From Eubacterium sp. (GTDB lineage: Bacteria; Bacillota; Clostridia; Lachnospirales; Lachnospiraceae), in contig JAILRB010000064.1 of NCBI GenBank assembly GCA_024698585.1, positions 1 through 64,000 of the forward strand: 64,000 nt of DNA, read 5' to 3'. Shown here piece by piece: positions 7,823 through 53,330 of this stretch (within the stretch, counting starts at the first letter, position 1; each line of letters begins with the position of its first letter). The translations under genes and the position numbers were made by a program. Under the pieces are notes generated by a model that was not told the DNA's origin, did not search any database, and worked only from the letters and a program-made list of their open reading frames with translations.

Positions 7823-9010
7823 ATGAAAATATATGCAGACTATGCTGCAACGACGCCAATGAGCGAGACAGCAATCAAGGCAATGATAAATATCATGCAG
7901 GAAGTTTATGGAAATCCATCCAGTCTTCACAGCATTGGTCAGAAGGCAGCAGAATATCTTTTACAGGCACGAATTGATGTGGCAGAAGCCATTGGTGCAG
8001 ACTTTAAGGAAATCTATTTTACATCCGGGGGGAGTGAAGCAGATAATCAGGCTTTAATCTCTGCAGCATACTTCGGAAGATTAAAAGGAAAGAATCATAT
8101 TATTTCCACACCAATTGAACATCATGCGATTCTTCATACATTAGATAAATTAAAAAAGGAAGGGTTTGATGTGACCTTAGTGGATGTGGAAAGTAATGGG
8201 ATTGTAGATGCCAAGAAAGTGGAAGCGGCAATCACAGATAAAACCGCATTGGTAACAGTGATGTTTGCAAACAATGAAATCGGAACCATTCAGCCAATCA
8301 AAGAAATTGCAGCAATTTGTAATGAAAGAGGAATTCCTTTCCATACAGATGCGGTTCAGGCGGTTGGTCATGTTCCGGTGAATGTAAAGGAATTAGGTGT
8401 GGACATGCTTTCCCTGTCCTCCCACAAATTTAAAGGACCGAAAGGGGTTGGAGTCTTATATGCGAATAAAAAGGTTCCGCTGACCAACGTCATTGAAGGT
8501 GGTGCACAGGAGCGCGGCAAACGTGCTGGAACAGAGAATCTGGCAGCAATTGTTGGTATGGCAGCGGCATTGAAAGAAGCTGTGGCTAATGTTGAAGAAA
8601 CTGCAAAAAAGACAGCACAGCGCAGAAGACAATTGATTGAAGGATTGTCACAGATTGAGCATTCTGCATTAAACGGAGATGCGGAACAAAGACTTCCTGG
8701 CAATGTGAATTTCTGTTTTGAAGGAATTGAAGGGGAATCTCTTCTATTATTATTAGATAGCAAAGGAATTGCAGCATCTTCCGGTTCTGCATGTACTTCC
8801 GGTTCCCTGGATCCAAGTCACGTGTTATTAGCAATCGGACGACCACACGAAGTGGCTCATGGTTCACTGAGATTGACATTTAATGAAGAAATCACGGAAG
8901 AAGAAGTAGAATACCTGATTCAGTCTACGAAGGATGTTGTGGAATACCTGCGAAGCATTTCGCCGGTATGGGATGAATTACAGAGAGGAGAATTAGAATA
9001 TGTTATATAG
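7823..9010 (+). CDS. nifS: Cysteine desulfurase
   Basis: MKIYADYAATTPMSETA, SSHKFKGPKGVGVLY, SSGSACTSGSLDPSHVLLAIG. Confidence 0.95.
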   Translation: MKIYADYAATTPMSETAIKAMINIMQEVYGNPSSLHSIGQKAAEYLLQARIDVAEAIGADFKEIYFTSGGSEADNQALISAAYFGRLKGKNHIISTPIEHHAILHTLDKLKKEGFDVTLVDVESNGIVDAKKVEAAITDKTALVTVMFANNEIGTIQPIKEIAAICNERGIPFHTDAVQAVGHVPVNVKELGVDMLSLSSHKFKGPKGVGVLYANKKVPLTNVIEGGAQERGKRAGTENLAAIVGMAAALKEAVANVEETAKKTAQRRRQLIEGLSQIEHSALNGDAEQRLPGNVNFCFEGIEGESLLLLLDSKGIAASSGSACTSGSLDPSHVLLAIGRPHEVAHGSLRLTFNEEITEEEVEYLIQSTKDVVEYLRSISPVWDELQRGELEYVI

Positions 9011-9380
9011 TGAAAAGGTAATGGATCATTTCATGAATCCAAGAAATGTCGGTGAAATTGAAGACGCGGATGGTATCGGAGAAGTAGGAAATGCCAAGTG
9101 TGGTGATATTATGAAGATTTATCTGAAGATTGATCAGAATATCATTACAGACGTGAAGTTTAAAACCTTCGGTTGTGGTTCTGCCATTGCCAGCAGTTCC
9201 ATGGCAACAGAATTGATTAAAGGAAAATCTGTGGATGAAGCGTTGGCCTTAACAAATAAGGCAGTAACAGAAGCACTGGACGGTCTGCCGACTCATAAGA
9301 TTCATTGTTCTGTTTTAGCAGAAGAAGCAATCAAATCCGCATTGGATGACTTCTATCAGAGATATCCGGACGGAAAATAA
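9000..9380 (+). CDS. nifU: Fe-S cluster assembly scaffold, NifU/IscU-like
   Basis: MLYSEKVMDHFMNPRNVGEIEDADGIGEVGNAKCGDIMKIYLKI...FKTFGCGSAIASSSMATE; overlaps nifS end. Confidence 0.95.
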   Translation: MLYSEKVMDHFMNPRNVGEIEDADGIGEVGNAKCGDIMKIYLKIDQNIITDVKFKTFGCGSAIASSSMATELIKGKSVDEALALTNKAVTEALDGLPTHKIHCSVLAEEAIKSALDDFYQRYPDGK

Positions 9381-9391
9381 TATATGAAAGT

Positions 9392-9437
9392 AAAAGACAC
9401 TCGGTGAAGCGATCATGCTACGCCGGGTGTCTTTTTT
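9392..9437 (+). terminator. Rho-independent terminator after nifU
   Basis: AAAGACACTCGGtgaagcgatcatgctacgCCGGGTGTCTTTTTTT. Confidence 0.85.
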
Positions 9438-9520: not shown

Positions 9521-9850
9521 TAAGGTACACCTGGAAAGAGGAAAAAAAGTCAATGTACCTTACATATAGAAGAAAGAGAGTGGCTAGGGTACATCTAGTG
9601 GGGGGCAAAAAAGTGATGGTACCTTATAAATGGAAGAATGATTAGGGTTAGGGTACACTTCAAAAAAGTTGAAAGGGTTAGCTGTACCTTGCAACGGAGA
9701 AAAATGAAGGAAGTAAGGTACAGCCCCAAAAAAAAGACCATACGACCGTACCTTACAAGTTAAATAAATGAAAAAGATAGGGTATGGCAATCAAAAATTG
9801 TTCTAACAAGTGTACCTTATGATAAAGAAATATGAAAAAGTTAAGGTAAC
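9521..9850. repeat. Regularly spaced array of 11 alternating-orientation 9-bp motifs (TAAGGTACA / TGTACCTTA), about 64-bp period
   Basis: Forward motifs start at 9521, 9585, 9649, 9714, 9778, 9842 (spacing 64,64,65,64,64); inverted motifs at 9554, 9618, 9683, 9747, 9811. Intervening sequences are about 24 and 22 nt, A/purine-rich, not conserved. Confidence 0.85.
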
Positions 9851-10005: not shown

Positions 10006-10076
10006 CATATGGAAAAATAAAAGTCGAAAATTTATAATGTTAGAGGAGAGAAAACATATGAAGGAGTAGACGGAAC

Positions 10077-13000
10077 ATGAAAAGACAACACAGGTTTATG
10101 AAGAAAGTGGTCGCATGCATGCTGGCCATTTGTTTATGTATGCCGGCACAGTTTACCACAAAAACTTCTGCGGCAGACATTAACAACATTGGCGTGCCGA
10201 ATTACAGGGTTCAAAAAAATGCATCAAAGACAGATGCGTTTGTTTATGCCTATAATGTATTGGATTACGGCGCGGACAACACAGGAAACAATGACAATAC
10301 GCAAATCTTCCAGAAGCTGATTGATCACACTGCGAATCTGGGAGGTGGAATCATTTATGTACCATCAGGAAGATACAAGATTGCCGGTTCTTTGAGAATC
10401 AAGAAAGGTGTCACCTTGCGCGGAGACTGGACGAAGCCAAAAGCAGGACAGAGTCTTACCGGTGGAACCATTCTGATGGCTTATGTGGGACGAGGAAAAG
10501 GTGAAAGCAGCACACCGTTTATGGAGACGGAAGTAGAAGTCGGCGTGATGGATATGACAATCTGGTATCCGGAACAGGATCCGAACAATATCGTGGAATA
10601 CTCTCCGACGATTCGTTTAGGATGTAATGGATACTTTGGAAATGAATATGCCAATATTAAAAACGTGACCTTGGTGAATTCCTATATTGGAATCTGGTGG
10701 AATCAGAGCAATGGCGGAGCATCACCGGTTATCAATGGGGTGTATGGTACCCCGCTGAAAAAAGGAATTGAGATTGACTGTATCGCGGATGTAGGACGAA
10801 TCGATAACGTGACATTCTCACCGGATTTCTGGTCAGGCTCCGGACTTCCCAATGCACCGGAAAAAGGAAGTTCCTTTGAACGCTGGATCTATGACAATGG
10901 AATCGGAATTGTCATGCGTCGAAATGACTGGTCCTATGCCTGCTATATTAATATAGAAGGTTATCACGTGGGATATAACACCAAAGTCTCTTCAGAGGGC
11001 AATGGTGCAACACCAAACGGACATCATTATAAGTTCAAACTGAAAAACTGTAACATCGGAATTTTATTTGAGACGTCCAATTACGTGGGTATTTTGTTTC
11101 ATGATGTTACCGCTTACAATTGTGAAACGGGATTTCAGGTCAATGGTGGTACCACAGATACCATCCAGTTTGCAAAGAGTACATTCACTTGTAGTAAGTA
11201 TGCAATCAATGTGGACAAGGCTTCCACCACAAAGGTACTCTTGTACGATTCCACAGTGGAAAAGGGTGTGGTAAATATTGATGGTGGAACACTGATGTCA
11301 ACAGCGACTGCCTATAACAATAAGGCTCCACAGATTGTCATTGGAAGTCTGGGACGTGTTTCTCTGGCAGGAAATACCTTTAAGAACGAAAGAGAAATCC
11401 GAAACAATTCCATTTATCAGTCAGATTTGGAAAATGGTTCCGTGAATGTGAAGCCGGTTCCGGATTTTGATGATACAAAGTCTCAGTATCAGAGCCATAT
11501 GCCGAAAAAACTGGATTTATATGTGGTTACAAACAGCCCATACAATGCAGATAATAACCGAAATCATGGGGGAGGAAATGATTGTACCAATGCCATCCAG
11601 AGCGCATTAAATGACGCTTCCGCAGGTGGCGGGGGAATCGTATTCCTTCCGGCAGGACATTATAGAATTAATGGTTCTTTATTGATTCCAGGCAATGTTG
11701 AGTTACGTGGTGCCACGGACTTAAGTACCGTACCTCACGGATCCGGAGCAATTCTGGAAGCGTATGGCTTTAAGGGCAATGCGAATGGAACTCCACTGAT
11801 TCGCATTTCAGAAAGTGCCGGAGTGCGAGGAATCATTGTAAACTATCCGGAGCAGACCTACCAGCTGGATGGGAACGGAGAATTCCATCCGGTGGATTAC
11901 CCGGCAACCATGCAGGGAATGGGAAGTGACATTTACGTGATCAATACAGGAATCCGTGCGGCAACTTACGGCCTGGATTTAGATACTTATCGTTGTGACA
12001 ACCATTATGTGGAATTTTTGGCAGGACATGTAAATAAGGTTTGTGTCAAAGTGGGAAATGGTTCTTCCAACGGTACTATTAACAATTTAATGTTTAATAC
12101 AATCATTTATGGTTGTGGCCAGGAATATCCGAAGTTCGGAGGATTCCCGAACAGCCCGAACACTCCGGCAGGGGTAAGTAACGGACCGGTTTACGACCAG
12201 CAGTTACGGGAATTGGAATTCCTGATTGTGGGAGATACAACAAATCAGCATTTATATAACTGTTTCCCATACGGAGCTTATATTGGAACAAAACTGATTA
12301 GTGAAGGAAACGGTGGACCACAGAATCTTTCTTCCATGGGATTGGGAATTGACGGTTCCAGAAAATCATTGTATTTTGGTTCAGGTCTGACAGGTGAAAT
12401 GAATTTCGTGGACAATCAGATTGTGTCCTTAAACAATGATCAGCCGATTACCAGATATTTTGAGACGGAAGGAAATTCTAATTTTACCGCAAACTTTTAC
12501 AATACCGATTTATGGGGATATCCGGAAAAAGCAGTTGTGATGAATGCCGGAAGCGGTACATTAAATCTTTATACCGCTAATTTCCAGCAGCGTGGTTATA
12601 ATGGAGCCTTGACAGTTGGCGAGGGCAGTAAGGTGAATTTAATCACATCAAGCTTTAATACCAATAATGCAACCTTCTCATCCGGAAGCAGTCGGGTATC
12701 GGTAATTAATACGGTGGCAGATTACACCCAGAATGAAGCAAATGCTTTTGCTGAAAATAAGGCAAATTTCTCTACCGCAGTGGTTGTGGACGGAAACAGC
12801 CAGGCAATGGCGAAGATTAACCAAACCGGATGGGTGGCATCTTCTAATGTAAATAACTATATGGCTGCCCAGTCCTTGGATGGGGATTTAAACTCCCAGT
12901 GGAATTCCAGCTGGCAGGCTCCGGGACAGTGGTATCAGGTGGATATGGGAAATGTGCAGCAGTTTGACACCATTGTGACCACATTAGGAAATACTGCCGA

Positions 13001-14264
13001 TTCTCCGGGAGACTATAAAGTATTGCTTTCTAATGACGGAAGTAATTGGAGACAGGTGGCAGCAGGACAAAATCGGAATATTTATGAAGTGGGGCCACAG
13101 CAGGCCAGATATGTTCGAATCGAACAAAACAGCAGTGCAGGAAAATTCTGGGCAATCTATGAATTTTATGTTCTAAACAGTGAAAGTTATGATGTGGGGG
13201 ACGGGGAAATCATTGAGCCGGAACCAACTACAGAAGAACAGACTACCGAAGAAGTAATTACAGAAAAAGAAACGAATACAGAAGCAGAGACGACTACAGC
13301 TTCACAGCCGGGACAGGAAACAATTTATGGAGTGGAAAATGCTACGGTTACTGTGGCAGAGCTGTTTAACACTGCAGCAGCGTACCATGGAAAGAATGTT
13401 GGAAACCTTCATTTAGAAGGAGCATCCTTTACTATTTCTTCCGTGAACGGTGGAACAAAGGGAGGCATTGCGACCCTTCTGGTACATTATGCATCCAATG
13501 AGGATAATTCTCATCTGGGTCTGTCGGTAAACAATGGTGCGCAGACTACATTAAGCTTTTCATCCACTGGTGGATGGGAAGCGTATACAGGAACGATTTC
13601 CACAGAAATCAATCTGGCTCCGGGAAATGGAAATACCTTACAGTTTACAGGTGGTTCCGGTGGCGTTAATGTGGATTACATTGCCATTTGTCTGCAAAAT
13701 TCCGAAGAAGAGGAAACGACGAATCAGAATGGAACCATTAGCAATCAGTTAAAGATTGAAGGATATCAGATTAGCTACACATTGAAAGGACTTCGTGTTA
13801 TTTCATCTGTGGATGAGGAAATCGATGGAAAGAGAGTGGTAAAGGCAGGAAATATTTACGGCTTGTTTTCTCAGGGAGCTACCGCAGAGGATTTGGTTCT
13901 TGGAACATCACATCCATTTGTGGCTGACTTTGAGTACACCAGTGCTGGAATTCTTTCACCAATGCCGGGAATGGAAGAGGACACTACTTATCATTCCATG
14001 ACAATGATTAAAAACGGAACCAGTGTTAAGGCATACACCGCAGAATACGGTGTCAGAGCATATGCTATTTTAGAGGATGGTTCTGTTCGATATAGCAAAG
14101 TGAAGACTTATTCCATTTATAAAGTAGCTGAATATCTTTATGAAAAGAATCTTATGAGTAACAGTGCAGGTCATGAGTATTTGTATCGGGATATTTTATT
14201 GAAAGTGAACCCGAATTACAAGGAAATTGACTACGATTGGGGCAATGAGATTGTAAAATTTTGA
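10077..14264 (+). CDS. Secreted GH55-like beta-1,3-glucanase: two pectate-lyase-superfamily beta-helix domains, F5/8 type C domain, CBM6/35-like domain, unknown C-terminal domain
   Basis: Signal peptide; VLDYGADNTGNNDNTQIFQKLID...GGGIIYVPSGRYKIAGSL and a second NDCTNAIQSALNDASAGGGGIVFLPAGHYRINGSL; F5/8C AAQSLDGDLNSQWNSSW...ARYVRIEQ; TTEEQTTEE linker; CBM-like YGVENATVTV...GGVNVDYIAICLQ. Confidence 0.82.
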   Translation: MKRQHRFMKKVVACMLAICLCMPAQFTTKTSAADINNIGVPNYRVQKNASKTDAFVYAYNVLDYGADNTGNNDNTQIFQKLIDHTANLGGGIIYVPSGRYKIAGSLRIKKGVTLRGDWTKPKAGQSLTGGTILMAYVGRGKGESSTPFMETEVEVGVMDMTIWYPEQDPNNIVEYSPTIRLGCNGYFGNEYANIKNVTLVNSYIGIWWNQSNGGASPVINGVYGTPLKKGIEIDCIADVGRIDNVTFSPDFWSGSGLPNAPEKGSSFERWIYDNGIGIVMRRNDWSYACYINIEGYHVGYNTKVSSEGNGATPNGHHYKFKLKNCNIGILFETSNYVGILFHDVTAYNCETGFQVNGGTTDTIQFAKSTFTCSKYAINVDKASTTKVLLYDSTVEKGVVNIDGGTLMSTATAYNNKAPQIVIGSLGRVSLAGNTFKNEREIRNNSIYQSDLENGSVNVKPVPDFDDTKSQYQSHMPKKLDLYVVTNSPYNADNNRNHGGGNDCTNAIQSALNDASAGGGGIVFLPAGHYRINGSLLIPGNVELRGATDLSTVPHGSGAILEAYGFKGNANGTPLIRISESAGVRGIIVNYPEQTYQLDGNGEFHPVDYPATMQGMGSDIYVINTGIRAATYGLDLDTYRCDNHYVEFLAGHVNKVCVKVGNGSSNGTINNLMFNTIIYGCGQEYPKFGGFPNSPNTPAGVSNGPVYDQQLRELEFLIVGDTTNQHLYNCFPYGAYIGTKLISEGNGGPQNLSSMGLGIDGSRKSLYFGSGLTGEMNFVDNQIVSLNNDQPITRYFETEGNSNFTANFYNTDLWGYPEKAVVMNAGSGTLNLYTANFQQRGYNGALTVGEGSKVNLITSSFNTNNATFSSGSSRVSVINTVADYTQNEANAFAENKANFSTAVVVDGNSQAMAKINQTGWVASSNVNNYMAAQSLDGDLNSQWNSSWQAPGQWYQVDMGNVQQFDTIVTTLGNTADSPGDYKVLLSNDGSNWRQVAAGQNRNIYEVGPQQARYVRIEQNSSAGKFWAIYEFYVLNSESYDVGDGEIIEPEPTTEEQTTEEVITEKETNTEAETTTASQPGQETIYGVENATVTVAELFNTAAAYHGKNVGNLHLEGASFTISSVNGGTKGGIATLLVHYASNEDNSHLGLSVNNGAQTTLSFSSTGGWEAYTGTISTEINLAPGNGNTLQFTGGSGGVNVDYIAICLQNSEEEETTNQNGTISNQLKIEGYQISYTLKGLRVISSVDEEIDGKRVVKAGNIYGLFSQGATAEDLVLGTSHPFVADFEYTSAGILSPMPGMEEDTTYHSMTMIKNGTSVKAYTAEYGVRAYAILEDGSVRYSKVKTYSIYKVAEYLYEKNLMSNSAGHEYLYRDILLKVNPNYKEIDYDWGNEIVKF

Positions 14265-15196: not shown

Positions 15197-17836
15197 ATGA
15201 AAATTTATGTGACAAGAACAGTAAGTTTACTTTTGGTTGTAACTGTTACTGCCTGGGGACTTATGGGATGTACAGAAGAAATTGAGCAGATTCAAAAAGT
15301 GAAAGCTGAAAAAATAGAGAATCAGGAAAAAGATGCAAAAGCCCTGGAACAATTACTGACAGGGGAAATTGCTCCGGCTTCCAAGGGGAAGAAGCAGGAA
15401 ACAGTATACGTGGAGATGGGAGCAGATGGAACAGTGAATAAAACCATTGTCAGCGACCTGATTAAAACAGAAGGAGAAGGAAATATTGAGGATTATTCCG
15501 AACTGGAAGACATTGAAAATCTGAGTGGTAAGGAACAGTTTGTGAAGAAGGATGATGGAAAAATAGTTTGGGAAAACAAGGGGAAGGATATTTCTTATCA
15601 GGGAACCACAACCAAGTCCCTTCCGATATCCATAAAAGTTCAATACTATTTAGATGGGAAAGAAATGACGCCGGAGGAAATGGCAGGAAAAAGCGGAAAG
15701 GTGAGACTGGTATATACCTATGAAAATAATTCAGAGGATTTCGTCCCGTTTTTGACATTGACGGCAATGATTTTAGATAGTAATTTCTCAAATGTTTCCG
15801 TGGACCACGGAAAGGTGATCGCCCAGGAAGGAAAACAGATTGTCGTGGGATATGGTGTTCCCGGATTGAAAAAATATCTGGTGGATCATGTTGAGAATGG
15901 AAAGAAGTATCTGGAAAATATTGAGTTACCGGAACAGATTAACATTACTGCGGATGTGAAGGATTTCTCTATGGGAATGACATTGTCAGTGGCCACATCG
16001 GAACTTGCGGATTTAAATCTTGGAAAAACCTTGAATTTTTCTGATGTGACGGAGCAGATGGAAACCCTGCAGAATGGTGCAGATCAATTAGTTGATGGTG
16101 CAACGAAAGTCAATGATGGAACCGAAAAACTGAAAGACGGAAGTGAAAAATTGGCTTCCGGTTCCGTGTCCTTAAATAAAGGTTTGAAGAAGCTGGTGGT
16201 AGGTGCCGTGACCTTGAAGAAGGGAACAGAAGCATTAAAGAATGGCGCAGGAGTCCTGAAAAAGGGCGTCGGTTCCTTAAAGTCCGGAGCAAAGACCTTA
16301 AAGGATGGAACCGGAAAAGTAAGTAACGGTGCAAAACAATTGAAGAGCGGTTCTTCTGATTTATCTGAAGGTGCAGCGGCATTGAAAAAAGGTTCTGCTG
16401 ATTTGGCCGATGGTGCAGATAAAGTAAAGACAGGTTCGATAACTCTTCATGATGGAACGTCAGAATTGCTAAAGAACTATAATTTATTCCATCAGTCTGT
16501 AACCAGTGGCGCATCCCAGGTGAACCAGGGGTCCGAAAAACTGTATCAGGGATCCAAGGATTTGGAAAGTGGTGCGAAAAATGCCAGTGAAGGTGCCGAA
16601 AAATTAGCTGCCGGGTTAAAAAATGCGAAGGACGCATTTGAACAAACAGATGAGAGTGTAGGTTTGGAGAATGGTGCAAAGTCAGTTGCAACCGGACTGA
16701 CCAAGGCAAACGCCGGCGTGAAGAAACTGGTGAAAAAAATGAATGACATGCCAACGGGGATTGGAGGACAAATCGATGCCATTATTATTCAGGTCTCTAA
16801 TTCCACAGGTGGTGCAATTTCCAGCAAGGCAAGATTAAATGCCACAGTGGAAGGAATCAATCAGTCGGTAGCTGCAGGGACTCCGTTAGAAAATGTCTTA
16901 GAAGCCAATGGACTGAGCGTGGAATCTTATTATGGGCTGGTACAGGCGTATTACAGTGTGCAGACATTGGAGAGTGTTCAGAAAAGCATGAATCAGGAAT
17001 TGAGTGAGAGCAAAGATGAGATTGAGGCGCTGGTAGATGGATTGGATAACCTGGAAAGTGGTTCCAAAGACTTAAGCACCGGTGTAAGTTCTTTGAAAGA
17101 AGGCATTTCACAGTTATACAGTGGTGCAGTGGCTTTATCCGATGAGGAAAAAGGCCTTCCGGCATTGTATCAGGGAACGACAACCATGAAGAATGGACTA
17201 AAACAATTAAACGAAGGTGCAGCATCCCTGGATAACGGATTAAGTGAAAACAGTACCAAGATTCAGGGCGGTATTCAGAGTCTGGATGAGGGCACTGGAA
17301 AACTGGATTCCGGTGTCAAGGATTTGGCAGACGGAGCCGGTAAGGTGAAAAAAGGAAGTTCGGATCTGGCAACCGGTGCAGGAAAACTGAACAAAGGAGC
17401 CGGTGACTTATATGATGGAACAGTGCAGTTAAAGGATGGGGCTGGAAAACTATTTCAGGGAACCAAGAAACTGTCCGATGGTACTAATGCACTGAATCAG
17501 GGAAGTATCAAACTTTTCCAGGGAACGGAAAGTTTATATGATGGAACGGTACAGTTAAAAGATGGTAGTGAAAAATTAGCCGATGGGGCACAGACATTAG
17601 ATCGCGGTGTCGTGACTTTAATGGATGGAACGAAGAAATTAAAGAATGGAACTGTAAAACTGAATAATAAAGGAATCAAAAAGATTACAAAAATCTTTGA
17701 GGAAACAGCACCGGAAGCTGTGGAATTAATTGATGATATTTTAAATAAAGGAAAGAATTACCGTTCCTTCAGTGGAATTACGGAGCATATGAGTGGAAGT
17801 GTGAAATTTATATTTAAGACCGAAGAAATCGAGTAG
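15197..17836 (+). CDS. Exported/lipoprotein-like protein with many L-x-x-G-x-x-x-L-x-D-G repeats (YhgE/Pip-like coiled region)
   Basis: N-terminal LGM-type lipobox candidate (GLMGC); long runs such as LADGADKVKTGSITLHDGTSELL and LKDGAGKLFQGTKKLSDGTNALNQGS. Confidence 0.8.
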   Translation: MKIYVTRTVSLLLVVTVTAWGLMGCTEEIEQIQKVKAEKIENQEKDAKALEQLLTGEIAPASKGKKQETVYVEMGADGTVNKTIVSDLIKTEGEGNIEDYSELEDIENLSGKEQFVKKDDGKIVWENKGKDISYQGTTTKSLPISIKVQYYLDGKEMTPEEMAGKSGKVRLVYTYENNSEDFVPFLTLTAMILDSNFSNVSVDHGKVIAQEGKQIVVGYGVPGLKKYLVDHVENGKKYLENIELPEQINITADVKDFSMGMTLSVATSELADLNLGKTLNFSDVTEQMETLQNGADQLVDGATKVNDGTEKLKDGSEKLASGSVSLNKGLKKLVVGAVTLKKGTEALKNGAGVLKKGVGSLKSGAKTLKDGTGKVSNGAKQLKSGSSDLSEGAAALKKGSADLADGADKVKTGSITLHDGTSELLKNYNLFHQSVTSGASQVNQGSEKLYQGSKDLESGAKNASEGAEKLAAGLKNAKDAFEQTDESVGLENGAKSVATGLTKANAGVKKLVKKMNDMPTGIGGQIDAIIIQVSNSTGGAISSKARLNATVEGINQSVAAGTPLENVLEANGLSVESYYGLVQAYYSVQTLESVQKSMNQELSESKDEIEALVDGLDNLESGSKDLSTGVSSLKEGISQLYSGAVALSDEEKGLPALYQGTTTMKNGLKQLNEGAASLDNGLSENSTKIQGGIQSLDEGTGKLDSGVKDLADGAGKVKKGSSDLATGAGKLNKGAGDLYDGTVQLKDGAGKLFQGTKKLSDGTNALNQGSIKLFQGTESLYDGTVQLKDGSEKLADGAQTLDRGVVTLMDGTKKLKNGTVKLNNKGIKKITKIFEETAPEAVELIDDILNKGKNYRSFSGITEHMSGSVKFIFKTEEIE

Positions 17837-21969: not shown

Positions 21970-22057
21970 GCGGAGCGCCCCTCTATGACTAAAACGCATC
22001 TGCAGTGCAGATGCAGAAGTGGCGAAGCCACGGTTTTAGGAATAGAGGAAGGACTGA
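21970..22057 (+). repeat. Structured repeat family, element A copy 1 (88 bp)
   Basis: gcggagcgccCCTCTATgaCTAAAACGCATCTGCagtGCAGATGCagaaGTGGCgaaGCCACgGTTTTAGgaATAGAGGaaggactga; identical to copy 2. Confidence 0.9.
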
Positions 22058-22067
22058 ACGAAGAAGA

Positions 22068-22155
22068 GCGGAGCGCCCCTCTATGACTAAAACGCATCTG
22101 CAGTGCAGATGCAGAAGTGGCGAAGCCACGGTTTTAGGAATAGAGGAAGGACTGA
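22068..22155 (+). repeat. Structured repeat family, element A copy 2 (88 bp, 98-bp period)
   Basis: Identical by reading to 21970-22057. Confidence 0.9.
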
Positions 22156-42952: not shown

Positions 42953-44860
42953 ATGAGAAAGATTACGAAGAAAATTGTATCAGTCGTAACCAGTTGCGCT
43001 ATGGTTGTTGCTTTAGGAGCAGCATTTCCACAGTTTAGCGTAAAAAATGTAAGTGCAGCAAATGCATCTTCCACATTGATTTGGAGTGATGAATTCAATG
43101 GGAGTTCATTAGACACATCAAAGTGGAACTATGAAACAGGCACCGGTTCCGGTGGATGGGGAAACAATGAAAGACAGTACTACACAAACAGAACGGACAA
43201 TGTGTACGTATCTGGCGGTTCTTTACATATTAAGGCAAAAAGAGAAAATTACGGTGGAATGAACTACACATCCGGAAGAATTAAAACAGCCGGAAAGTTC
43301 TCATTTAAATATGGATATGTGGAAGCAAGATTAGCACTTCCAGCAAGCTCAGGAATCTGGCCTGCATTCTGGATGCTCGGTGAAAACATTGGCAGCGTTG
43401 GCTGGCCTGCATGTGGTGAAATCGATATCATGGAAGCAATCAATGCAGAATATAAGACATACGCTACATGTCATTGGAATGCAAACGGACATGCAGAATA
43501 TGGACGTTCTACAGGAAACTTCGATATTACTCAGTTCCATACATACGCATTATCATGGGATAAGGATTATATCAGAATGTATGTAGACGGTGGAGAAGTT
43601 TATGTGATGCAGATTACAAACGGCACCGGAGATACAGATGAATTCCATAAGCCATTCTTCCTGTTATTAAACGTAGCAGTTGGTGGTAACTGGCCGGGAT
43701 TCAACATTGACGACGGAGCACTTCCAAAGGAAATGAAGGTTGACTACATCCGTGTATATCAGGATGGTGGTACATCTCAGAACAACAATAACAATAATAA
43801 CAACAATAATAACAACAACAATAACAACTCAGGATCAAATACATCCACACCATCTTCAGGAATGGGAATGAACTATGCAAGTGGTTCTTCTGCAACAGCA
43901 TTTGTAAATGATTCTAAGTGGGCTGACATTCACTATACAGTTAATGGTGGAGCACAGCAGAATGTACGTATGACTCAGAGCGGAAGTAAGGCTACTTATA
44001 CAATTAATGGATTAAGCAGTGGAGCAACCGTAAAATACTGGTTCACATACAGTGATAATTCTGGATTTGTTCGTGATACACAGAGCTATACATACACACA
44101 CAACGCAGGAAGCTCAAGTAACTCCGGATCAAACAATTCAGGTTCAAATAACTCAGGATCAACAAACACAGCATCTGGTGATGTATATATTTATCAGGAT
44201 TCAAACTACGGTGGACGTTCCGCTTCTTTAGGCGTAGGAAATTACAACCTTGCATCTCTTCAGGCAAAGGGATTCAAGAACGATGATCTTTCATCTATCA
44301 AGGTTCCTTGGGGATATAAAGTAATCATGTACGCTGATGATAACTACAGCGGATCTACAAAGACATTGTATGCAGATTCTTCTTATGTAGGAAATGACTG
44401 GAATGACAAAGTATCTTCTATCAAGGTTCAGAGAGCACAGTACAAGATTAAAAACCGTCACAGCGGACTTGTTCTTGATGTTAGCGGTGGAAGCAAAGAC
44501 AATGGAGCAAATATTCAGCAGTGGTCTGACAACGGATCTAATGCTCAGAAATTTGAAGTACGTTTTAATGCATCTGATTCCACGTACGTTTTAGTAAATG
44601 TTGGAAGTGGAAAAGCAGTTGATATGGGCGGATGGTCTAAAGACAACGGCGGAAACGCTCTTCAGTGGGATAACAACAATACAGATAACCAGAGATGGTT
44701 CATTACTCCGGTTGATAACGGATATTCATTCTTAATTAACAAATACAGCAATAAGGGACTTGAAGTTGGTGGATGGTCTACATCAGCTGGTGGAAATGTT
44801 CAGCAGTGGGATTACAAGGCACAGGCAAATCAGCAGTGGCAGTTTATCAGAGTAAACTAA
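42953..44860 (+). CDS. Secreted GH16 beta-1,3-glucanase (laminarinase-like) - CBM56-like - beta/gamma-crystallin-like - CBM13 (ricin B)
   Basis: WSDEFNGSSLDTSKWNYETGTGSGGWGNNERQYYT, catalytic GEIDIMEAI (ExDxxE); poly-Asn linker; WADIHYTVNGGAQQNVRMTQ; GDVYIYQDSNYGGRSASLGVGNYN; QxW repeats in C-terminus. Confidence 0.93.
   Translation: MRKITKKIVSVVTSCAMVVALGAAFPQFSVKNVSAANASSTLIWSDEFNGSSLDTSKWNYETGTGSGGWGNNERQYYTNRTDNVYVSGGSLHIKAKRENYGGMNYTSGRIKTAGKFSFKYGYVEARLALPASSGIWPAFWMLGENIGSVGWPACGEIDIMEAINAEYKTYATCHWNANGHAEYGRSTGNFDITQFHTYALSWDKDYIRMYVDGGEVYVMQITNGTGDTDEFHKPFFLLLNVAVGGNWPGFNIDDGALPKEMKVDYIRVYQDGGTSQNNNNNNNNNNNNNNNNSGSNTSTPSSGMGMNYASGSSATAFVNDSKWADIHYTVNGGAQQNVRMTQSGSKATYTINGLSSGATVKYWFTYSDNSGFVRDTQSYTYTHNAGSSSNSGSNNSGSNNSGSTNTASGDVYIYQDSNYGGRSASLGVGNYNLASLQAKGFKNDDLSSIKVPWGYKVIMYADDNYSGSTKTLYADSSYVGNDWNDKVSSIKVQRAQYKIKNRHSGLVLDVSGGSKDNGANIQQWSDNGSNAQKFEVRFNASDSTYVLVNVGSGKAVDMGGWSKDNGGNALQWDNNNTDNQRWFITPVDNGYSFLINKYSNKGLEVGGWSTSAGGNVQQWDYKAQANQQWQFIRVN
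43777..43830 (+). repeat. Trinucleotide (AAC/AAT)n tract encoding poly-Asn linker
   Basis: caGAACAACAATAACAATAATAACAACAATAATAACAACAACAATAACAAC; 16 consecutive Asn codons. Confidence 0.9.
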
Positions 44861-44975
44861 AAAATTAAGGAAGTTTGGAAAGCATGGGGGAACCATTCCT
44901 CTGTGCTTTCTTGATGATAAGGGGAGCAAAGCGTAACTACAGGCAAAAAATTTAGACAGAATGGAGAGTAGTAAA

Positions 44976-47018
44976 ATGATCAGAAAAAAACTGATGGCCG
45001 TGTTACTATCGGTAGCAATGATTGCTACGATGGCACCGGCAACAAGCAAGACACAGGAAGTGAAAGCAGCTTCCGCAGGCACACGAGTAGTAGGATATTT
45101 TCCATCTTACAGAACTTACGCAATCAACTCGGTTGATTTTTCAGCAATGACTCATTGTATGTTAGCATTCATGACATACTCCAATGGTACATTGACTTCC
45201 GGATTTTCCGGCGGAGATGTACAGACCATTGTAAACAAGTGTCATGCCAGCGGAACCAAGGCAATGATTGCCATTGGCGGATGGAACGGATTTGATTCCA
45301 GCGATAATCCTTTTGGAACAGCACAGAAGAGAACCAACTTTGTAAATCAGGTAATGAACTATGTAAACACCTATAACTTAGATGGCGTTGACATTGATAT
45401 TGAATTGACCGATGCAAACATCTGGAACAACTACAATGCATTGGTTTCAGAACTTTCCGGTAGATTAAAATCTCAGGGAAAACTTCTTACCATGGCAGTT
45501 TCAACATGGTTTACAGGTTCTATCAGCAATTCAACTTACCAGTATTTTGACTTCTTAAACCTGATGTCTTATGACTACAATCAGAGTGGTACCGGAGAAG
45601 TAGCACCTTGGTCACAGATTTATGACATGGTTTCCTATTACGGAAGCAGAGGTGTAAGCAACGACAAGCTTGTCATCGGTGTTCCTTTCTATGGATACGG
45701 TGCAGGCGGCGCAGCAAAAACTTTTGCTGAAATGGTTGCAATGAATCCGGCTTATGCAGACATGGATTACGCAGCAGGTGTTTATTACAACGGAATGAGC
45801 ACCATCCGAAAGAAAGCAGAGTACAGCAAGTCTTATGGCGGAACTATGATTTGGGAAGTGGCTCAGGACTCTTTCGGAACCTATTCTTTATTGAATGTGA
45901 TTAAGCAGGTAATGCAGACCGGAAATAATAACTCCGGAAACAACAATTCAGGAAATAACAATTCCGGCAACAACAACTCCGGAAACAATAACTCCGGAAA
46001 TACATCCACACCATCCTCAGGAATGGGAATCAATTATGTGAATGCTTCTTCCGCAACAGCATATGTGAATGACTCAAAGTGGACAGATATTCACTACACA
46101 GTTAATGGTGGAGCACAGCAGAATGTACGTATGAATCAGGACGGAAACAAAGCAGTTTATACCATCAATGGATTAAGCAGTGGCGCAACCGTAAAATACT
46201 GGTTTACATATTGTAATACTTCCGGATATGTTCAGGACACGCAGAGTTACACCTATACACATACCGGTTCAGGAAACAGTAATAGCGGAAACAACAATGG
46301 AAGCAACACCGGTTCTAACACAAACACAGGCTCCGGTGATGTGTATATTTATCAGGATGCAAACTACGGCGGACGTTCCGCATCTTTAGGAGTAGGAAAC
46401 TACAATCTTGCGTCTCTTCAGGCAAAAGGCTTCAAGAATGACGACCTTTCATCCATCAAGGTTCCTTGGGGATATAAGGTAATCATGTATGCAGATGATA
46501 ACTTCAGTGGATCCACAAAGGTGGTAAATGGAGATACCGCTTATGTAGGAAATGATTGGAACGACAAGGTTTCATCCATCAAGGTTCAGAGAGCACAGTA
46601 TAAGATTGTCAACAGAAATAGTGGACTTTGTCTTGATGTTAGCGGTGGAAGTAAAGACAACGGCGCAAATATCCAGCAGTGGACAGACAACGGAACTGTA
46701 GCTCAGAAATGGGAAGTACGTTTCAATGCAGGAGATTCAACGTACGTTTTAGTAAACGTAGGTAGCGGTAAGGCAATGGATATGGATGCATGGTCTAAAG
46801 ATAATGGAGGCAATGCAATCCAGTGGGACAACAATAATACTGATAACCAGAGATGGTTTATTACTTCTGTTGATAACGGCTATACATTCTTGATTAACAA
46901 GAACAGTAATAAAGCGTTAGATGTAGAAGCTTGGTCAACTGCAGCAGGTGGCAATGTACATCAGTGGGATTACGGCGCACAGGCTAATCAGCAGTGGAAA
47001 TTTGTTCAGGTAAATTAG
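44976..47018 (+). CDS. Secreted GH18 chitinase-like - CBM56-like - beta/gamma-crystallin-like - CBM13
   Basis: VVGYFPSYRTYAINSVDFSAMTHCMLAF, catalytic DGVDIDIE; NNSG-repeat linker; C-terminal modules nearly identical to the preceding GH16; start at RBS-linked ATG. Confidence 0.93.
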   Translation: MIRKKLMAVLLSVAMIATMAPATSKTQEVKAASAGTRVVGYFPSYRTYAINSVDFSAMTHCMLAFMTYSNGTLTSGFSGGDVQTIVNKCHASGTKAMIAIGGWNGFDSSDNPFGTAQKRTNFVNQVMNYVNTYNLDGVDIDIELTDANIWNNYNALVSELSGRLKSQGKLLTMAVSTWFTGSISNSTYQYFDFLNLMSYDYNQSGTGEVAPWSQIYDMVSYYGSRGVSNDKLVIGVPFYGYGAGGAAKTFAEMVAMNPAYADMDYAAGVYYNGMSTIRKKAEYSKSYGGTMIWEVAQDSFGTYSLLNVIKQVMQTGNNNSGNNNSGNNNSGNNNSGNNNSGNTSTPSSGMGINYVNASSATAYVNDSKWTDIHYTVNGGAQQNVRMNQDGNKAVYTINGLSSGATVKYWFTYCNTSGYVQDTQSYTYTHTGSGNSNSGNNNGSNTGSNTNTGSGDVYIYQDANYGGRSASLGVGNYNLASLQAKGFKNDDLSSIKVPWGYKVIMYADDNFSGSTKVVNGDTAYVGNDWNDKVSSIKVQRAQYKIVNRNSGLCLDVSGGSKDNGANIQQWTDNGTVAQKWEVRFNAGDSTYVLVNVGSGKAMDMDAWSKDNGGNAIQWDNNNTDNQRWFITSVDNGYTFLINKNSNKALDVEAWSTAAGGNVHQWDYGAQANQQWKFVQVN

Positions 47019-47131
47019 TAGAAGAAAAACATAAGTTTCATAATAAAAAGAGAAGCAGGAGGTCAGATTACTGATCGTCCTGCTTCTTTTATTTCTACAG
47101 CAGATTTCTATTCCGGTATGGATTGAATTTC

Positions 47132-47611
47132 TTATTCCGGATATACCAATCGTTCTTCCGTGATATCTTGAAGAACTTCTTCGTAAAATTTCTTACTGAT
47201 GTATTTTGCCATGTTAAGATTCATATCAAGATAATTACCACAGTCCTTAGCACAGGCTCCCGGAACCTCGCCTTCAAAATCTTTCATGAAAGCATACATT
47301 TCCTGAACCAGTGGAAGAACATCCTTAGAAGAATAATCGCCGGCAAGCACCATATAAAAACCGGTGCGGCAGCCCATCGGACCAAAGTAAATTGTCTTAT
47401 CAGCGTAATCCTTATGATTTCTCAGAAAAGTTGCTGCAAGATGCTCGATGGTATGAATTTCCGCAGTGTTCATTACCGGTTCAAAGTTCGGACGTGTCAT
47501 ACGAATGTCAAATGTCGTAATCACATTTTCTCCTACCTGATCTTTTCTGGATACATAAAGCCCCGGCAAAAGCTTTAAGTGGTCTATTGTAAAACTTGTG
47601 ATCTTTTCCAT
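47132..47611 (-). CDS. luxS: S-ribosylhomocysteine lyase
   Basis: MNTAEIHTIEHLAATFLRNH, KTIYFGPMGCRTGFYMVLAG, ACAKDCGNYLDMNL; ORF-track N-terminal extension dropped. Confidence 0.95.
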   Translation of the reverse strand: MEKITSFTIDHLKLLPGLYVSRKDQVGENVITTFDIRMTRPNFEPVMNTAEIHTIEHLAATFLRNHKDYADKTIYFGPMGCRTGFYMVLAGDYSSKDVLPLVQEMYAFMKDFEGEVPGACAKDCGNYLDMNLNMAKYISKKFYEEVLQDITEERLVYPE

Positions 47612-47847
47612 TTTAATCTCCATTCTGCCGTAATGAAACGGCGTGTTTTTTTCAAAAGAGATGATAGCACAAATGGGGCGGATGCCGCAAGGGGGCGATA
47701 TGTGAAAAAACGGAATGCGGGGATGAGGGGAAGTGAAACAAGTCATTGTATTGCACTTATGGTTTTGGTAAACTACTTTCGTGAAGAAAGTGCACTATAG
47801 AAGCGCTTTTTTTATGGACGGTGCCTAAGGCAGGGGTGTGAAGAACA

Positions 47848-47946
47848 TGCATAGATTAGGCGAAAAGCGCTAAATTCTATGCAATAAAGCAGAGCCCTGG
47901 AGGAAAAAACTGCATAGATTAGACGAAAAACACGCAAATTTATGCA
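47848..47946. repeat. Two 36-bp hairpin repeats at 63-bp period upstream of rsmH
   Basis: TGCATAGATTAGGCGAAAAGCGCTAAATTCTATGCA (47848-47883) and TGCATAGATTAGACGAAAAACACGCAAATTTATGCA (47911-47946). Confidence 0.8.
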
Positions 47947-47969
47947 TTTATAAGGAAAAGGAAGAGAAA

Positions 47970-49031
47970 ATGGAAGAAAAAAAGCATAAACGACGCGTAC
48001 GTTATAGTGGAACCCATCCAAGAACTTACGCAGAAAAATATAAGGAACATAATCCGGAAAAGTATCAGGATACCATTGAGAAAGTGATTGCAAAAGGAAG
48101 CACTCCGGCGGGAATGCATCTTTCTATTATGGTGGATGAGATTCTGGAATTCTTAGATATCAAGCCGGGACAGGTAGGACTGGATGTTACCCTGGGATAT
48201 GGTGGACATACTACGGAAATGCTGAAAAAATTAGAGGGGAATGGTCATGTTTACGGACTGGATGTGGATCCGATTGAAATAAAGAAGACGGAAAAACGAT
48301 TGGCGGACAGAGGATTCGGACCGGAGGTGTTTACCCCAATCAATACCAATTTTCAGAACATTGACAAGGTGGCAGAACAGTATGGGCCATTTGATTTTAT
48401 TTTGGCGGATCTGGGAGTGTCGTCCATGCAGATTGATAATCCGGAAAGAGGATTTACTTATAAGTATGACGGACCACTGGATTTACGTTTGAATCCGGAG
48501 GCGGGGATTTCGGCTGCGCAGCGATTAAAGGAAGTAAGTGTGGATGAACTGGAAGGAATGCTGATTGAAAATTCTGATGAACCATATGCTTACGATATTG
48601 CAAAGGAACTGGTTTCACGAAATCGAGGTGGTAGAAAAATTGAGACCACGTTGGAACTGAAAAATGCCATTGAAGCCGCGCTGAGAAAGAATAAGGAATA
48701 TTCCAAAATGTCAAAGAAAGACCAGGAGGAAATGGCGAAGAAGAGCTGTGCCAGAGTGTTCCAGGCGCTACGAATTGACGTGAATAATGAGTTTGAAGTG
48801 CTTTATGATTTGTTGGAAAAATTGCCGGGAGCCTTGAAGCCAGGGGGAAGAGTTGCCGTGTTGACATTCCATTCAGGAGAAGACCGTTTGGTAAAGAAAT
48901 CCTTTAAGGCATTGAAACGAGAAGATGTTTACAGTGAGGTGGCAAGAGATGTTGTCAGACCATCGGCGAAGGAGTGCCATAGAAATCCGAGAGCAAAGTC
49001 CACGAAAATGCGATGGGCAGTGAAAAAATAG
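47970..49031 (+). CDS. rsmH: 16S rRNA (cytosine(1402)-N(4))-methyltransferase
   Basis: LDVTLGYGGHTTEMLKKL, DFILADLGVSSMQIDNPERGFTYKYDGPLDLR, VLTFHSGEDRLVK; N-terminus longer than usual (KPRTYAEKYKE-type extension). Confidence 0.95.
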   Translation: MEEKKHKRRVRYSGTHPRTYAEKYKEHNPEKYQDTIEKVIAKGSTPAGMHLSIMVDEILEFLDIKPGQVGLDVTLGYGGHTTEMLKKLEGNGHVYGLDVDPIEIKKTEKRLADRGFGPEVFTPINTNFQNIDKVAEQYGPFDFILADLGVSSMQIDNPERGFTYKYDGPLDLRLNPEAGISAAQRLKEVSVDELEGMLIENSDEPYAYDIAKELVSRNRGGRKIETTLELKNAIEAALRKNKEYSKMSKKDQEEMAKKSCARVFQALRIDVNNEFEVLYDLLEKLPGALKPGGRVAVLTFHSGEDRLVKKSFKALKREDVYSEVARDVVRPSAKECHRNPRAKSTKMRWAVKK

Positions 49032-49122
49032 CCTTTTCTTTAAGGGGATTTTCTGCTACAATCATAGAAGTGCTTCCCTGTATTTAAGGACAGGGATAAA
49101 GACAAAAAGACGGAGGAACAAT

Positions 49123-50127
49123 ATGTTAGGCGACAAAAAAGTTTTGTACAGCGCGATGCAGAGTACAGGAACATTAACATTAGGAAATTATTTGGGGGCT
49201 CTTGATAACTGGATTAAGTTGGCAGATGAATATGAATGTTTTTATGCCATTGCGGATTTACATTCATTGACTGTAAGACAGGATCCAAAGGATATCCGTA
49301 AGAGAGCAAAGGATTTGTATACATTGTATGTGGCAGCAGGACTGGATCCGGAAAAGAACTGTATTTATTACCAGTCTCATGTTTCTGCCCATGCAGAACT
49401 TTCATGGATTTTAAACTGTTTCACATACATGGGCGAGTTAAATCGTATGACTCAGTTTAAGGATAAGGCTGCAAAACATTCAGACAACATCAATGCAGGA
49501 TTGTTTACATACCCTGTTCTGATGGCAGCGGACATTTTGTTGTATCAGGCTGATGTGGTACCGGTTGGAGCTGACCAGAAGCAGCATCTGGAAATCACCA
49601 GAGATATTGCAAACCGTTTTAACGGAATTTATGGAGATGTATTTACTGTTCCGGAACCATATATCGGAAAGGCTACAGCAAAAATCATGAGCCTTCAGGA
49701 TCCGACAAAGAAGATGTCAAAGTCTGATGAAAATGTCAATGCCAGCATTTTACTGATGGATGATCCGGATACAATTATCAGAAAGTTCAAGAGAGCTGTG
49801 ACAGATTCCAATATGGAAATCAGATATTCTGATGATAAGCCGGGAATTCAGAACTTAATCAATATTTATTCTTGTATTACCGGAAAAACTGTGGAAGAAA
49901 CAGAAAGAGAATTCGACGGTAAGGGATACGGTGAATTTAAACTGGCAGTGGGAGAAGCTGTTGTAAGCAGACTGAAACCATTACAGGATAAGTTCTATGA
50001 ACTTCAGAAGGAAAAAGATTATATTAATCGTGTGATTAAGGAAAATGATGAAAAGGCTGCTTACTTTGCTAATAAGACCTTACGTAAGGTACAGAAAAAA
50101 GTAGGATTAATTGAACGAATCAGATAA
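49123..50127 (+). CDS. trpS: Tryptophan--tRNA ligase
   Basis: VLYSAMQSTGTLTLGNYLGAL, ILLYQADVVPVGADQKQHLEITRDIANRFN, KMSKSDEN. Confidence 0.96.
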   Translation: MLGDKKVLYSAMQSTGTLTLGNYLGALDNWIKLADEYECFYAIADLHSLTVRQDPKDIRKRAKDLYTLYVAAGLDPEKNCIYYQSHVSAHAELSWILNCFTYMGELNRMTQFKDKAAKHSDNINAGLFTYPVLMAADILLYQADVVPVGADQKQHLEITRDIANRFNGIYGDVFTVPEPYIGKATAKIMSLQDPTKKMSKSDENVNASILLMDDPDTIIRKFKRAVTDSNMEIRYSDDKPGIQNLINIYSCITGKTVEETEREFDGKGYGEFKLAVGEAVVSRLKPLQDKFYELQKEKDYINRVIKENDEKAAYFANKTLRKVQKKVGLIERIR

Positions 50128-50128
50128 C

Positions 50129-50160
50129 GACGAAAAGCACCTTAGGGTGCTTTTCGTACA
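50129..50160 (+). terminator. Terminator after trpS
   Basis: CGAAAAGCACCttaGGGTGCTTTTCG. Confidence 0.75.
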
Positions 50161-50172
50161 TTTAGAGGAATT

Positions 50173-50796
50173 ATGAAATTAGTGAATCGATTAAAGGGAA
50201 AAATAAAAAGACATAGAAATGCATATAGAAAACAGAAGCATCTCAAAAAAATGGGGAAGGCATATGGCGTTGATTTCGGTGGCTATCTGTCAAAAGAAAA
50301 ATTGGAATTAGAACCTTTTGAAGGCTGCGCTTATGAGGCGTCTTTTGATTTGCCTGTTATTGTTAAACGATTACAAATTACGCCTGATGATTGTTTCATC
50401 GACATTGGTTGTGGAAAAGGGTATGCAATGCATTATTTTGCAAGTCTTCCGTTTGGAAAGATTGCGGGAATTGAAATCAAAGAAGAGTTAGCAAAAATTG
50501 CAAGGGATAATCTTAAAACACTATATCCGGAGGATTCACGGTTTGAAGTGATTGTAGGAGATGTTTGCAAGTACACTGATTACGATGAATATAATTATTT
50601 TTATTTATATAATCCGCTGACAAGAGTTGGAATTTCAAAATTTGTAGCACATTTGAGGGAAAGTTTGGAACGGTCGCCAAGGAATGTTTGGGTGATTTAT
50701 CAGAACCCGAGATTTTGGGATGAGTTTACGAAAGAGGAATTGTTTAATGCAGTTATTTCAGCGGATCGAAGCCTTATTTTGAAACATCAGAAGTAA
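50173..50796 (+). CDS. Class I SAM-dependent methyltransferase
   Basis: DCFIDIGCGKGYAMHYFASLPFGKIAGIEIKEELAKIA. Confidence 0.88.
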   Translation: MKLVNRLKGKIKRHRNAYRKQKHLKKMGKAYGVDFGGYLSKEKLELEPFEGCAYEASFDLPVIVKRLQITPDDCFIDIGCGKGYAMHYFASLPFGKIAGIEIKEELAKIARDNLKTLYPEDSRFEVIVGDVCKYTDYDEYNYFYLYNPLTRVGISKFVAHLRESLERSPRNVWVIYQNPRFWDEFTKEELFNAVISADRSLILKHQK

Positions 50797-50889
50797 ATGG
50801 TAAAAAAGGCTTATTTTTATTCCCACTTTTAAGGCTTTTATGTTATACTCTATGGAAAAGAACAATGCCGAAGAAAGGAAGCAGTTCAG

Positions 50890-51804
50890 ATGATTAAAGA
50901 TATTCAGGAAGAAATTATTCAGTTAAAAAAAGAAAAAGATATATGTATTTTGGCTCATTGCTATGAAAATCCAGAAATTCTGGAAGTGGCAGATTTTACC
51001 GGAGATAGTTATGCATTGGCAGTAAAAGCTTCGCAGGTGGAAAACAAAATTGTCATTATGTGTGGAGTTCGTTTTATGGCGGAGACTGTAAAGATTCTTT
51101 CCCCGGATAAGAAGGTTATCCTATCTCATCCAGATGCAGGTTGTCCGATGGCTGAACAGTTGGATAAGGAAATGGTGGTTCAGGCGAAGGAAATGATGCC
51201 GGACTATACGGTAGTGGCATATGTGAATACCACAAGCGAATTGAAGACGGTTTGTGATGTTTGTGTGACATCATCTTCCGCTGTGACGATTTGTAAAAAA
51301 ATTGAAAATGACAAGATTTTATTTATTCCGGATCCACAGTTAGGAAAATGGGTTTCCGAGCAGATTCCGGACAAAGAATTTAAAATTTTAGGTGCAGGAT
51401 GTCCGACTCACTGTGCCATGACCATAAAGGATGTGGAAAAAGCAAAAAAAGACCATCCGAATGCATTGCTTTTGGTTCATCCGGAATGCAGACCGGAAGT
51501 AACAGCAGAAGCAGACTATGCTGGCTCTACCACAGGAATTATGAATTATGCAAAACAGAGTGATGCAAAGGAATTTATTATTGGAACAGAAAACAGTATT
51601 AAGACGCATTTACAGATGGAATGTCCGGATAAGCAGTTTTATGCTTTGTCAAAAGAATGTATTTGCCCGAATATGAAATTAACCACATTAGTTGACGTGT
51701 TGAATTGTTGTAAGGGTAATGGGGGAGAAGAGATTGAATTAGAGGAAGAAACCAGACTGGCAGCGAAGAAGTGTATTGATGAAATGATTCGCTTAGGTGA
51801 TTAA
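50890..51804 (+). CDS. nadA: Quinolinate synthase
   Basis: ILAHCYENPEILEVADFTGDSYALAVKA, CGVRFMAETVKILSPDKKV, VHPECRPEV, CPNMKLTTL. Confidence 0.95.
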   Translation: MIKDIQEEIIQLKKEKDICILAHCYENPEILEVADFTGDSYALAVKASQVENKIVIMCGVRFMAETVKILSPDKKVILSHPDAGCPMAEQLDKEMVVQAKEMMPDYTVVAYVNTTSELKTVCDVCVTSSSAVTICKKIENDKILFIPDPQLGKWVSEQIPDKEFKILGAGCPTHCAMTIKDVEKAKKDHPNALLLVHPECRPEVTAEADYAGSTTGIMNYAKQSDAKEFIIGTENSIKTHLQMECPDKQFYALSKECICPNMKLTTLVDVLNCCKGNGGEEIELEEETRLAAKKCIDEMIRLGD

Positions 51805-51807
51805 GTT

Positions 51808-51856
51808 AGAGTTTGAGAAACGAGAGAAACATAAGGTATGTGTTTCTCTCGTTCCT
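51808..51856 (+). terminator. Terminator after nadA
   Basis: GAAACGAGAGAAACATAaggTATGTGTTTCTCTCGTTCC. Confidence 0.7.
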
Positions 51857-51892
51857 ATTATGGGGGGGGAGAAAGAATATTAGGAGGAAGTT

Positions 51893-52975: not shown

Positions 52976-52990
52976 AGAAAGAACATGAGC

Positions 52991-53011
52991 GGCACTGTTT
53001 CGGACAGTGCC
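52991..53011 (+). terminator. Terminator hairpin after mnmA
   Basis: GGCACTGTttcggACAGTGCC. Confidence 0.6.
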
Positions 53012-53018
53012 GTTTGCA

Positions 53019-53120
53019 TTGAACTTTTTAGTTCAGCTTTCTTATACGAAACTAAAAAGTTCAGCCTACATAAACTGAACTAAAAGTTCAGCAACATCTG
53101 TACTGAACTAAAAGTTCAGC
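53019..53120. repeat. Cluster of four GAACT...AGTTCAGC palindromes
   Basis: GAACTTTTTAGTTCAGC, AACTAAAAAGTTCAGC, ACTGAACTAAAAGTTCAGC (twice), three followed by C/AAcAT. Confidence 0.8.
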
Positions 53121-53241
53121 CCACATAAATTCGTAAAACAGCGACTGCGTCGCTTTTCATCTGCGAAACGCCTTTTCCGCTGTTTCACAGCGTTCAAAGC
53201 TGCTTCGCAGATGCGTTTTACTCATTTATGTGGCGCTCCGC
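53116..53241 (-). repeat. Structured repeat family, element B
   Basis: Minus strand: gcggagcgccACATAAATgaGTAAAACGCATCTGCGAA...TTCGCAGATG...GTTTTACgaATTTATGTgggctgaa; same layout as 21970-22057. Confidence 0.75.
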
Positions 53242-53242
53242 A

Positions 53243-53306: not shown

Positions 53307-53330
53307 GCTGAACTTTTTTGACAAAACCTA

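Follow-up and report, generated by a model that had tools for sequence, protein, structure and literature searches.

The alternating GGTAC array at positions 9521-9850 of the 64-kb stretch of DNA analyzed here (hereafter, the window) belongs to a repeat family that is scattered through intergenic DNA, occurs only as arrays, and is specific to a small clade of rumen Lachnospiraceae. The family is undescribed: no paper on such arrays in rumen Lachnospiraceae was found, and the papers containing the 9-mer strings use them incidentally, judging from their titles. We lean towards interpreting the arrays as same-face phased sites for a putative dimeric protein, tandem-duplicated and copied between loci, which may serve a multi-site assembly and perhaps DNA topology.

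In the window, 11 half-sites strictly alternate in orientation, one about every 32 bp, each of them exactly where the first-pass annotation of this DNA had placed it. Its spacer lengths of about 24 and 22 nt are also correct (24 bp forward-to-inverted, 22 bp inverted-to-forward), except that one forward-to-inverted spacer is 25 bp long. The motif conservation that it described holds for the core and not for the entire 9-mer: the invariant portion is GGTAC, while the full 9-mer is exact in only 4/11 motifs, has one mismatch in 5/11 and is degenerate in 2/11 (at 9778 and 9842). The features of the array and its surroundings are listed below; outer palindromes are inverted-to-forward pairs.

9000..9380, + strand: nifU-like gene (PF01592), 5' of the array
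9392..9435, + strand: terminator-like hairpin and T run 3' of nifU, outside the array (-27.3 kcal/mol, z = -6.05)
9521..9850, no strand: alternating GGTAC array, 11 half-sites, or 5.5 units of 64-65 bp (motif positions)
9521..9529, + strand: half-site F1, TAAGGTACA, exact 9-mer
9554..9562, - strand: half-site R1, TAAGGTACA (minus-strand reading), exact 9-mer
9585..9593, + strand: half-site F2, TAGGGTACA, 1 mismatch
9618..9626, - strand: half-site R2, TAAGGTACC (minus-strand reading), 1 mismatch
9649..9657, + strand: half-site F3, TAGGGTACA, 1 mismatch
9683..9691, - strand: half-site R3, CAAGGTACA (minus-strand reading), 1 mismatch
9714..9722, + strand: half-site F4, TAAGGTACA, exact 9-mer
9747..9755, - strand: half-site R4, TAAGGTACG (minus-strand reading), 1 mismatch
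9778..9786, + strand: half-site F5, TAGGGTATG, degenerate
9811..9819, - strand: half-site R5, TAAGGTACA (minus-strand reading), exact 9-mer
9842..9850, + strand: half-site F6, TAAGGTAAC, terminal copy, degenerate
9555..9592, no strand: outer palindrome 1, GTACCHBR-N22-YVDGGTAC, proposed dimer site
9619..9656, no strand: outer palindrome 2
9684..9721, no strand: outer palindrome 3
9748..9785, no strand: outer palindrome 4, right core degenerate
9812..9849, no strand: outer palindrome 5, right core degenerate
10010..10038, + strand: promoter-like match TGGAAA-17-TATAAT before GH55, outside the array, not above chance
10077..14264, + strand: pectate-lyase-fold (PF12708) protein with F5/8 domains, called GH55 in the first-pass annotation

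The longest chain with the same spacing comprises 11 motifs, compared with 2 when the 64-kb window was shuffled 60 times with its dinucleotide composition preserved (2/60 shuffles reached 2). The array escapes detection by Tandem Repeats Finder, as its spacers do not align. The array starts about 85 bp past the terminator-like hairpin and lies about 160 bp upstream of the promoter-like match; of these two flanks, both named before, the hairpin is borne out by its folding, but the promoter is a chance-level match.

In the whole genome containing the window (G000), pairs GGTAC-N25..28-GTACC occur 56 times, compared with 9 in the reversed control, and the matches cluster as arrays. At least 16 arrays are present in 2.51 Mb, located in contigs 1, 5 (three arrays), 13, 20, 33, 41 (two), 47, 52, 53, 54 (two), 56, and 59. 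A spaced-motif search of related genomes, proposed in the first-pass annotation, reveals phased arrays in three congeneric sister species (G006, G007, and G009), 9-13 in each among the arrays fetched. The compared genomes are draft MAGs, and all array counts and lengths are minima, since many arrays sit at contig ends. No arrays are found in the remaining 19 congeners, and 347 other genomes of the family, searched with up to 3 mismatches, yield only single three-mismatch matches at the control rate. In a scan of one genome per species, covering 85,488 species, true arrays are confined to rumen MAGs of this clade. A match in a Tb.RUG.215 contig is the L049 locus of the same clade, and matches in SUG799, RGIG9281, Streptomyces, and Gemmatimonadetes were rejected as repeat-rich or coding-like chance matches. 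RbfA is 97-100% identical to that of G000 in carriers; in G005 and G011, which are the closest species without arrays, the values are 93% and 88%, respectively. A viral origin was also rejected, as no IMG/VR viral contig matches the four-site pattern.

The phase of the sites is nearly constant. Among consecutive perfect cores, counted by a search not confined to the expected spacing, 350/353 opposite-core neighbors are 31+/-1 bp (forward-to-inverted) or 33+/-1 bp (inverted-to-forward) apart, that is, 175/176 forward-to-inverted distances are 30-32 bp and 175/177 inverted-to-forward ones are 32-34 bp. Complete units are 64 or 65 bp long in 185/193 cases. The oriented site has the form W4-N4-W4-N-YAR-GGTAC-RSYT, with W in positions -16..-13 and -8..-5. 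In 478 oriented half-sites, A/T is found in position -15 in 99% and in position -14 in 97%, and these two positions form the exact dyad of the outer pair; the inner (forward-to-inverted) dyad of the same half-sites shows no signal, and so the outer palindrome, about 50 bp long, is taken as the likely dimer site. Since the center spacing of 32 bp corresponds to about three turns, all sites are predicted by geometry to face the same side of the helix. Simple intrinsic curvature does not explain the two A/T blocks, as they are 8 bp apart and not 10.5.

In homologous unit pairs, cores differ by 0.3% when both units come from one array, 0.4% when they come from different arrays of the same genome, and 0.7% when they come from different genomes, compared with 21%, 30%, and 25%, respectively, for spacers; the chain finding required at least 4/5 core matches, which biases this comparison, but the neutral estimate for the core is still about 10-15%. 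Similarly, six orthologous blocks of G000 and G009 have fewer changes in motifs (17/368) than in spacers (83/803, p = 0.001), with no such bias in the window orthologue alone (4/99 vs 6/229). This divergence pattern, together with the spacing held within +/-1 bp and the failure of Tandem Repeats Finder on the window array, makes an ordinary decaying minisatellite without selected content, an outcome considered in the first-pass annotation, very improbable, although array length varies by whole units, also between sister species, and terminal copies are more degenerate (perfect cores in 69/96 terminal vs 354/387 internal copies). Descent from a shared ancestral unit may account for part of the spacing, although at 21-30% divergence the spacers would be expected to show more and larger length changes.

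All 48 outer pairs of the G000 genome are inside arrays (control, 1), hence the motif does not occur randomly and unphased, and lone sites are not kept, which is evidence against a classical regulon. The earlier suggestion of a phased array bound by a dimeric or oligomeric protein is supported by the +/-1 bp spacing, kept cores, and diverged spacers across 48 arrays in four species. A predicted dimeric HTH-type protein would read the outer palindrome, contacting GGTAC in the major groove, while the A/T steps, located at the dyad and at a distance of 8 bp from the core, may be read as shape or via the minor groove. Adjacent dimers would interact, producing a nucleoprotein filament or wrapped structure that spans 4-26 half-sites. 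As lone sites are not kept, the useful, selected state is probably the multi-site complex and not a single site. Lrp-family sites are two to three turns apart, and Lrp-type oligomers can wrap DNA (PMC2995911); NrdR boxes are about three turns apart (PMC12051234). What the arrays share with Lrp and NrdR operators is the center-to-center distance of about three turns, which allows oligomers to occupy a single face (PMC2995911, PMC12051234), while the differences are that those operators comprise few sites at target promoters, and the runs of 4-26 half-sites described here are dispersed beside unrelated genes, their binder being putative.

A 264-aa PD-(D/E)XK-looking protein was considered as the candidate binder and rejected, as it is also found in array-free G020 and G016, and its other copies are not near arrays. 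Its gene (L042:7551-8342, G000 contig 13) is 30-121 bp from an array in all four carriers, with 3-5 copies per carrier genome compared with 0-1 in most congeners. Its identity between carriers is 60-67%, compared with mostly 95-99% for the next genes, and it has no Pfam family and no convincing PDB relative.

Neighboring motifs are complementary by design and the arrays lie downstream of genes, as might be expected if transcribed hairpins of adjacent motifs affected mRNA stability or processing. However, the apparent excess pairing outside the core in pooled data is gone once partners are shuffled within each array, with no excess of Watson-Crick pairs next to the core; the core itself is nearly invariant and thus provides no pairing evidence either way. 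As the arms do not covary, hairpins are unlikely. Rfam yields no match up to E = 5, and an RNA element has no need for a constant three-turn phase, so we regard this role as quite improbable. Of the structured or recombinogenic element suggested in the first-pass annotation, the structured part is therefore not supported, and the recombinogenic part is partly correct, given that arrays expand and contract.

In CRISPR arrays, the repeats are direct, at least about 21 bp long, and accompanied by cas genes. The short repeats and varying spacers of the GGTAC arrays resemble a CRISPR or TIGR-type guide array, but repeats of that kind are absent, orientation alternates, the conserved part is 5-12 bp, spacers mutate and yet retain the A/T pattern, and no effector or cas-like gene was noticed at the array flanks examined. 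The chance of a guide array is thus negligible, consistent with the original opinion that this is not a CRISPR.

The genes adjoining the arrays are unrelated: nifU/GH55, infB/rbfA, proS/HAD, the mraZ-dcw gap, pcrA-like, gltX, metH, ileS, and others (names read from sequences, with Pfam runs for some). Of 15 arrays scored in G000, 10 are in co-directional gaps, 5 in convergent, and 0 in divergent ones, compared with 10/37 divergent gaps in the background; as the background was sampled around arrays and genes were simple ORF calls, this result is indicative only. In co-directional arrays of all four species, the coding strand of spacers is purine-rich in 19/20 cases, which is probably ordinary strand (perhaps leading-strand) composition.

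The array is located 5' of GH55, with about 160 bp between it and the promoter-like match, and between G000 and G009 it has fewer changes than the remaining gap sequence (10/328 vs 28/365, p = 0.008), as would be the case for a local operator array regulating GH55. On the other hand, at least 16 arrays adjoin unrelated genes, including the infB-rbfA gap and convergent gene pairs. Moreover, the nifU-GH55 gap has an array in G000 and G009, while in G007 nifU and the GH55 orthologue are kept with a 264-bp gap without an array, and the promoter region is recognizable (76% over 210 bp). The link to GH55 implied in the first-pass annotation hence does not hold, and such an operator is highly unlikely; regulation of one promoter is not the role we propose.

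For many of the G000 arrays, one or more sister species contain an orthologue. An array is present in all four species at the L042 locus and, judged by common neighbors, at the contig-56 locus. The infB-rbfA gap is 432 bp with an array in G000, contains an array in G009 and a partial one in G007, and is an array-free 72 bp in G006, compared with 14-138 bp in 16 array-free congeners. Gain versus loss at single loci is a parsimony reading made without a full tree. Several of the positions lack an array in one sister species, so none of the arrays is essential by itself. At L048, the shorter forms in G007 and G009 appear to have arisen by deletion between motif copies. The arrays at L044 and L047 share 77% identity over 369 bp, in opposite orientation; units are common to arrays at different loci, and therefore sequence moves between loci. 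The family would spread by tandem duplication and by array DNA being copied to further intergenic sites. The dynamics of arrays seem to vary from locus to locus: the spacers of the window and L048 arrays are conserved like motifs, or more than flanks, and those of L044, L007, and L047 turn over fast.

The main rival of our interpretation, possible though on the unlikely side, is a selfish non-autonomous repeat, where a transposase or recombinase binds the sites as its end repeats and copies arrays from locus to locus, while the host gains nothing. The units common to different loci, gain or loss at single sites, restriction to a single clade, and permissive 3'-side insertion sites are consistent with it, and the bipartite half-site of about 24 bp (A/T block, A/T block, core) may recall a paired-HTH transposase end. 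However, no autonomous copy or linked transposase is found at any examined flank, there are no isolated operator pairs, and target-site duplications could not be discerned. In particular, a search for RAYT (Y1_Tnp, PF01797) in 23 congeners yields none in G007 and G009, two in G000, and one sub-threshold fragment in G006; as two carriers lack Y1_Tnp, a RAYT/REP origin was rejected. The two intact Y1-type transposase genes of G000 (contig 59:4652 and contig 13:26) are absent from most congeners. The selfish repeat and same-face phased sites imply identical protein binding with a different purpose, and a transposase-like binder and our interpretation may both be true.

Among known repeats, REP/BIME are intergenic, lineage-restricted, and present in many copies, with regularly spaced alternating units between co-directional or convergent genes (PMC2817692, PMC3733652). 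The GGTAC arrays share all these features, including 0/15 G000 arrays between divergent genes. Unlike REP/BIME, their unit is an asymmetric YAR-GGTAC-RSYT site and not a 20-40 bp stem-loop, arms do not covary, and there is no GTAG/CGTC tag; spacers vary freely with the phase fixed, and, while solitary copies and doublets exist in REP/BIME, 48/48 GGTAC outer pairs are in arrays. In STAR of Staphylococcus (PMC3532100), a short motif alternates with lineage- and locus-specific spacers, with stable positions and local expansion or contraction; the motif forms GC-rich 14-bp direct repeats T(G/A/T)TGTTG(G/T)GGCCC(C/A) with spacers of at least 40 bp. Stable loci, lineage-conserved spacers, and copy-number change are seen here as well, but the motif differs, alternation and the three-turn phase are not seen for STAR in the text consulted (PMC3532100), and that study reports no frequent transfer between loci, compared with units common to loci in our case. 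NIME are likewise mosaics found between genes, in which short inverted repeats accompany an inner sequence that varies, but their dRS3 repeat, the 20-bp palindrome ATTCCC-N8-GGGAAT, which flanks elements ranging in length from 50 to 150 bp (PMC9778887), is absent from GGTAC arrays. By analogy, the GGTAC arrays appear closest in their mode of action to BIME or STAR arrays on which a helical-phase constraint is imposed, though they lack features that define each of the two.

In lying at gene ends and alternating in orientation, the arrays are reminiscent of BIMEs, a subset of which bind gyrase (PMC2817692); a function in DNA topology is therefore the most natural suggestion, made with low confidence. 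At transcription-unit ends, the complex might constrain supercoiling or organize the chromosome, as proposed for BIMEs; this step is weaker than the others. A more far-reaching version, which we hold as doubtful, is a clade-specific chromosome-organizing system, where a putative dedicated protein polymerizes on or wraps DNA at at least 16 phased arrays per chromosome, forming multi-site anchoring or topology points at transcription-unit ends.

Most dispersed bacterial repeats conserve the whole repeat or hairpin. In GGTAC arrays, only the short motif and the exact three-turn phase are kept, and the intervening DNA turns over, which makes them an unusually clear natural record of selection for multi-site nucleoprotein assembly. 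They provide an entry point to a putative new DNA-binding protein, and bear on the role of dispersed repeats such as BIME and STAR, as the sister species give ready natural comparisons of filled and empty sites.

The window also contains other repeats. A 98-bp unit at 21970-22155 is present in 1.9 copies with 100% identity and has an internal palindrome CATCTGCAGTGCAGATG. Positions 15197-17836 encode an 879-aa secreted or membrane protein, composed largely of degenerate L-x-x-G-x-x-x-L-x-x-G-type repeats, and several tandem repeats of 3-51 bp at 43781-58716 probably encode Thr/Gln/Asn-rich linkers of secreted proteins.
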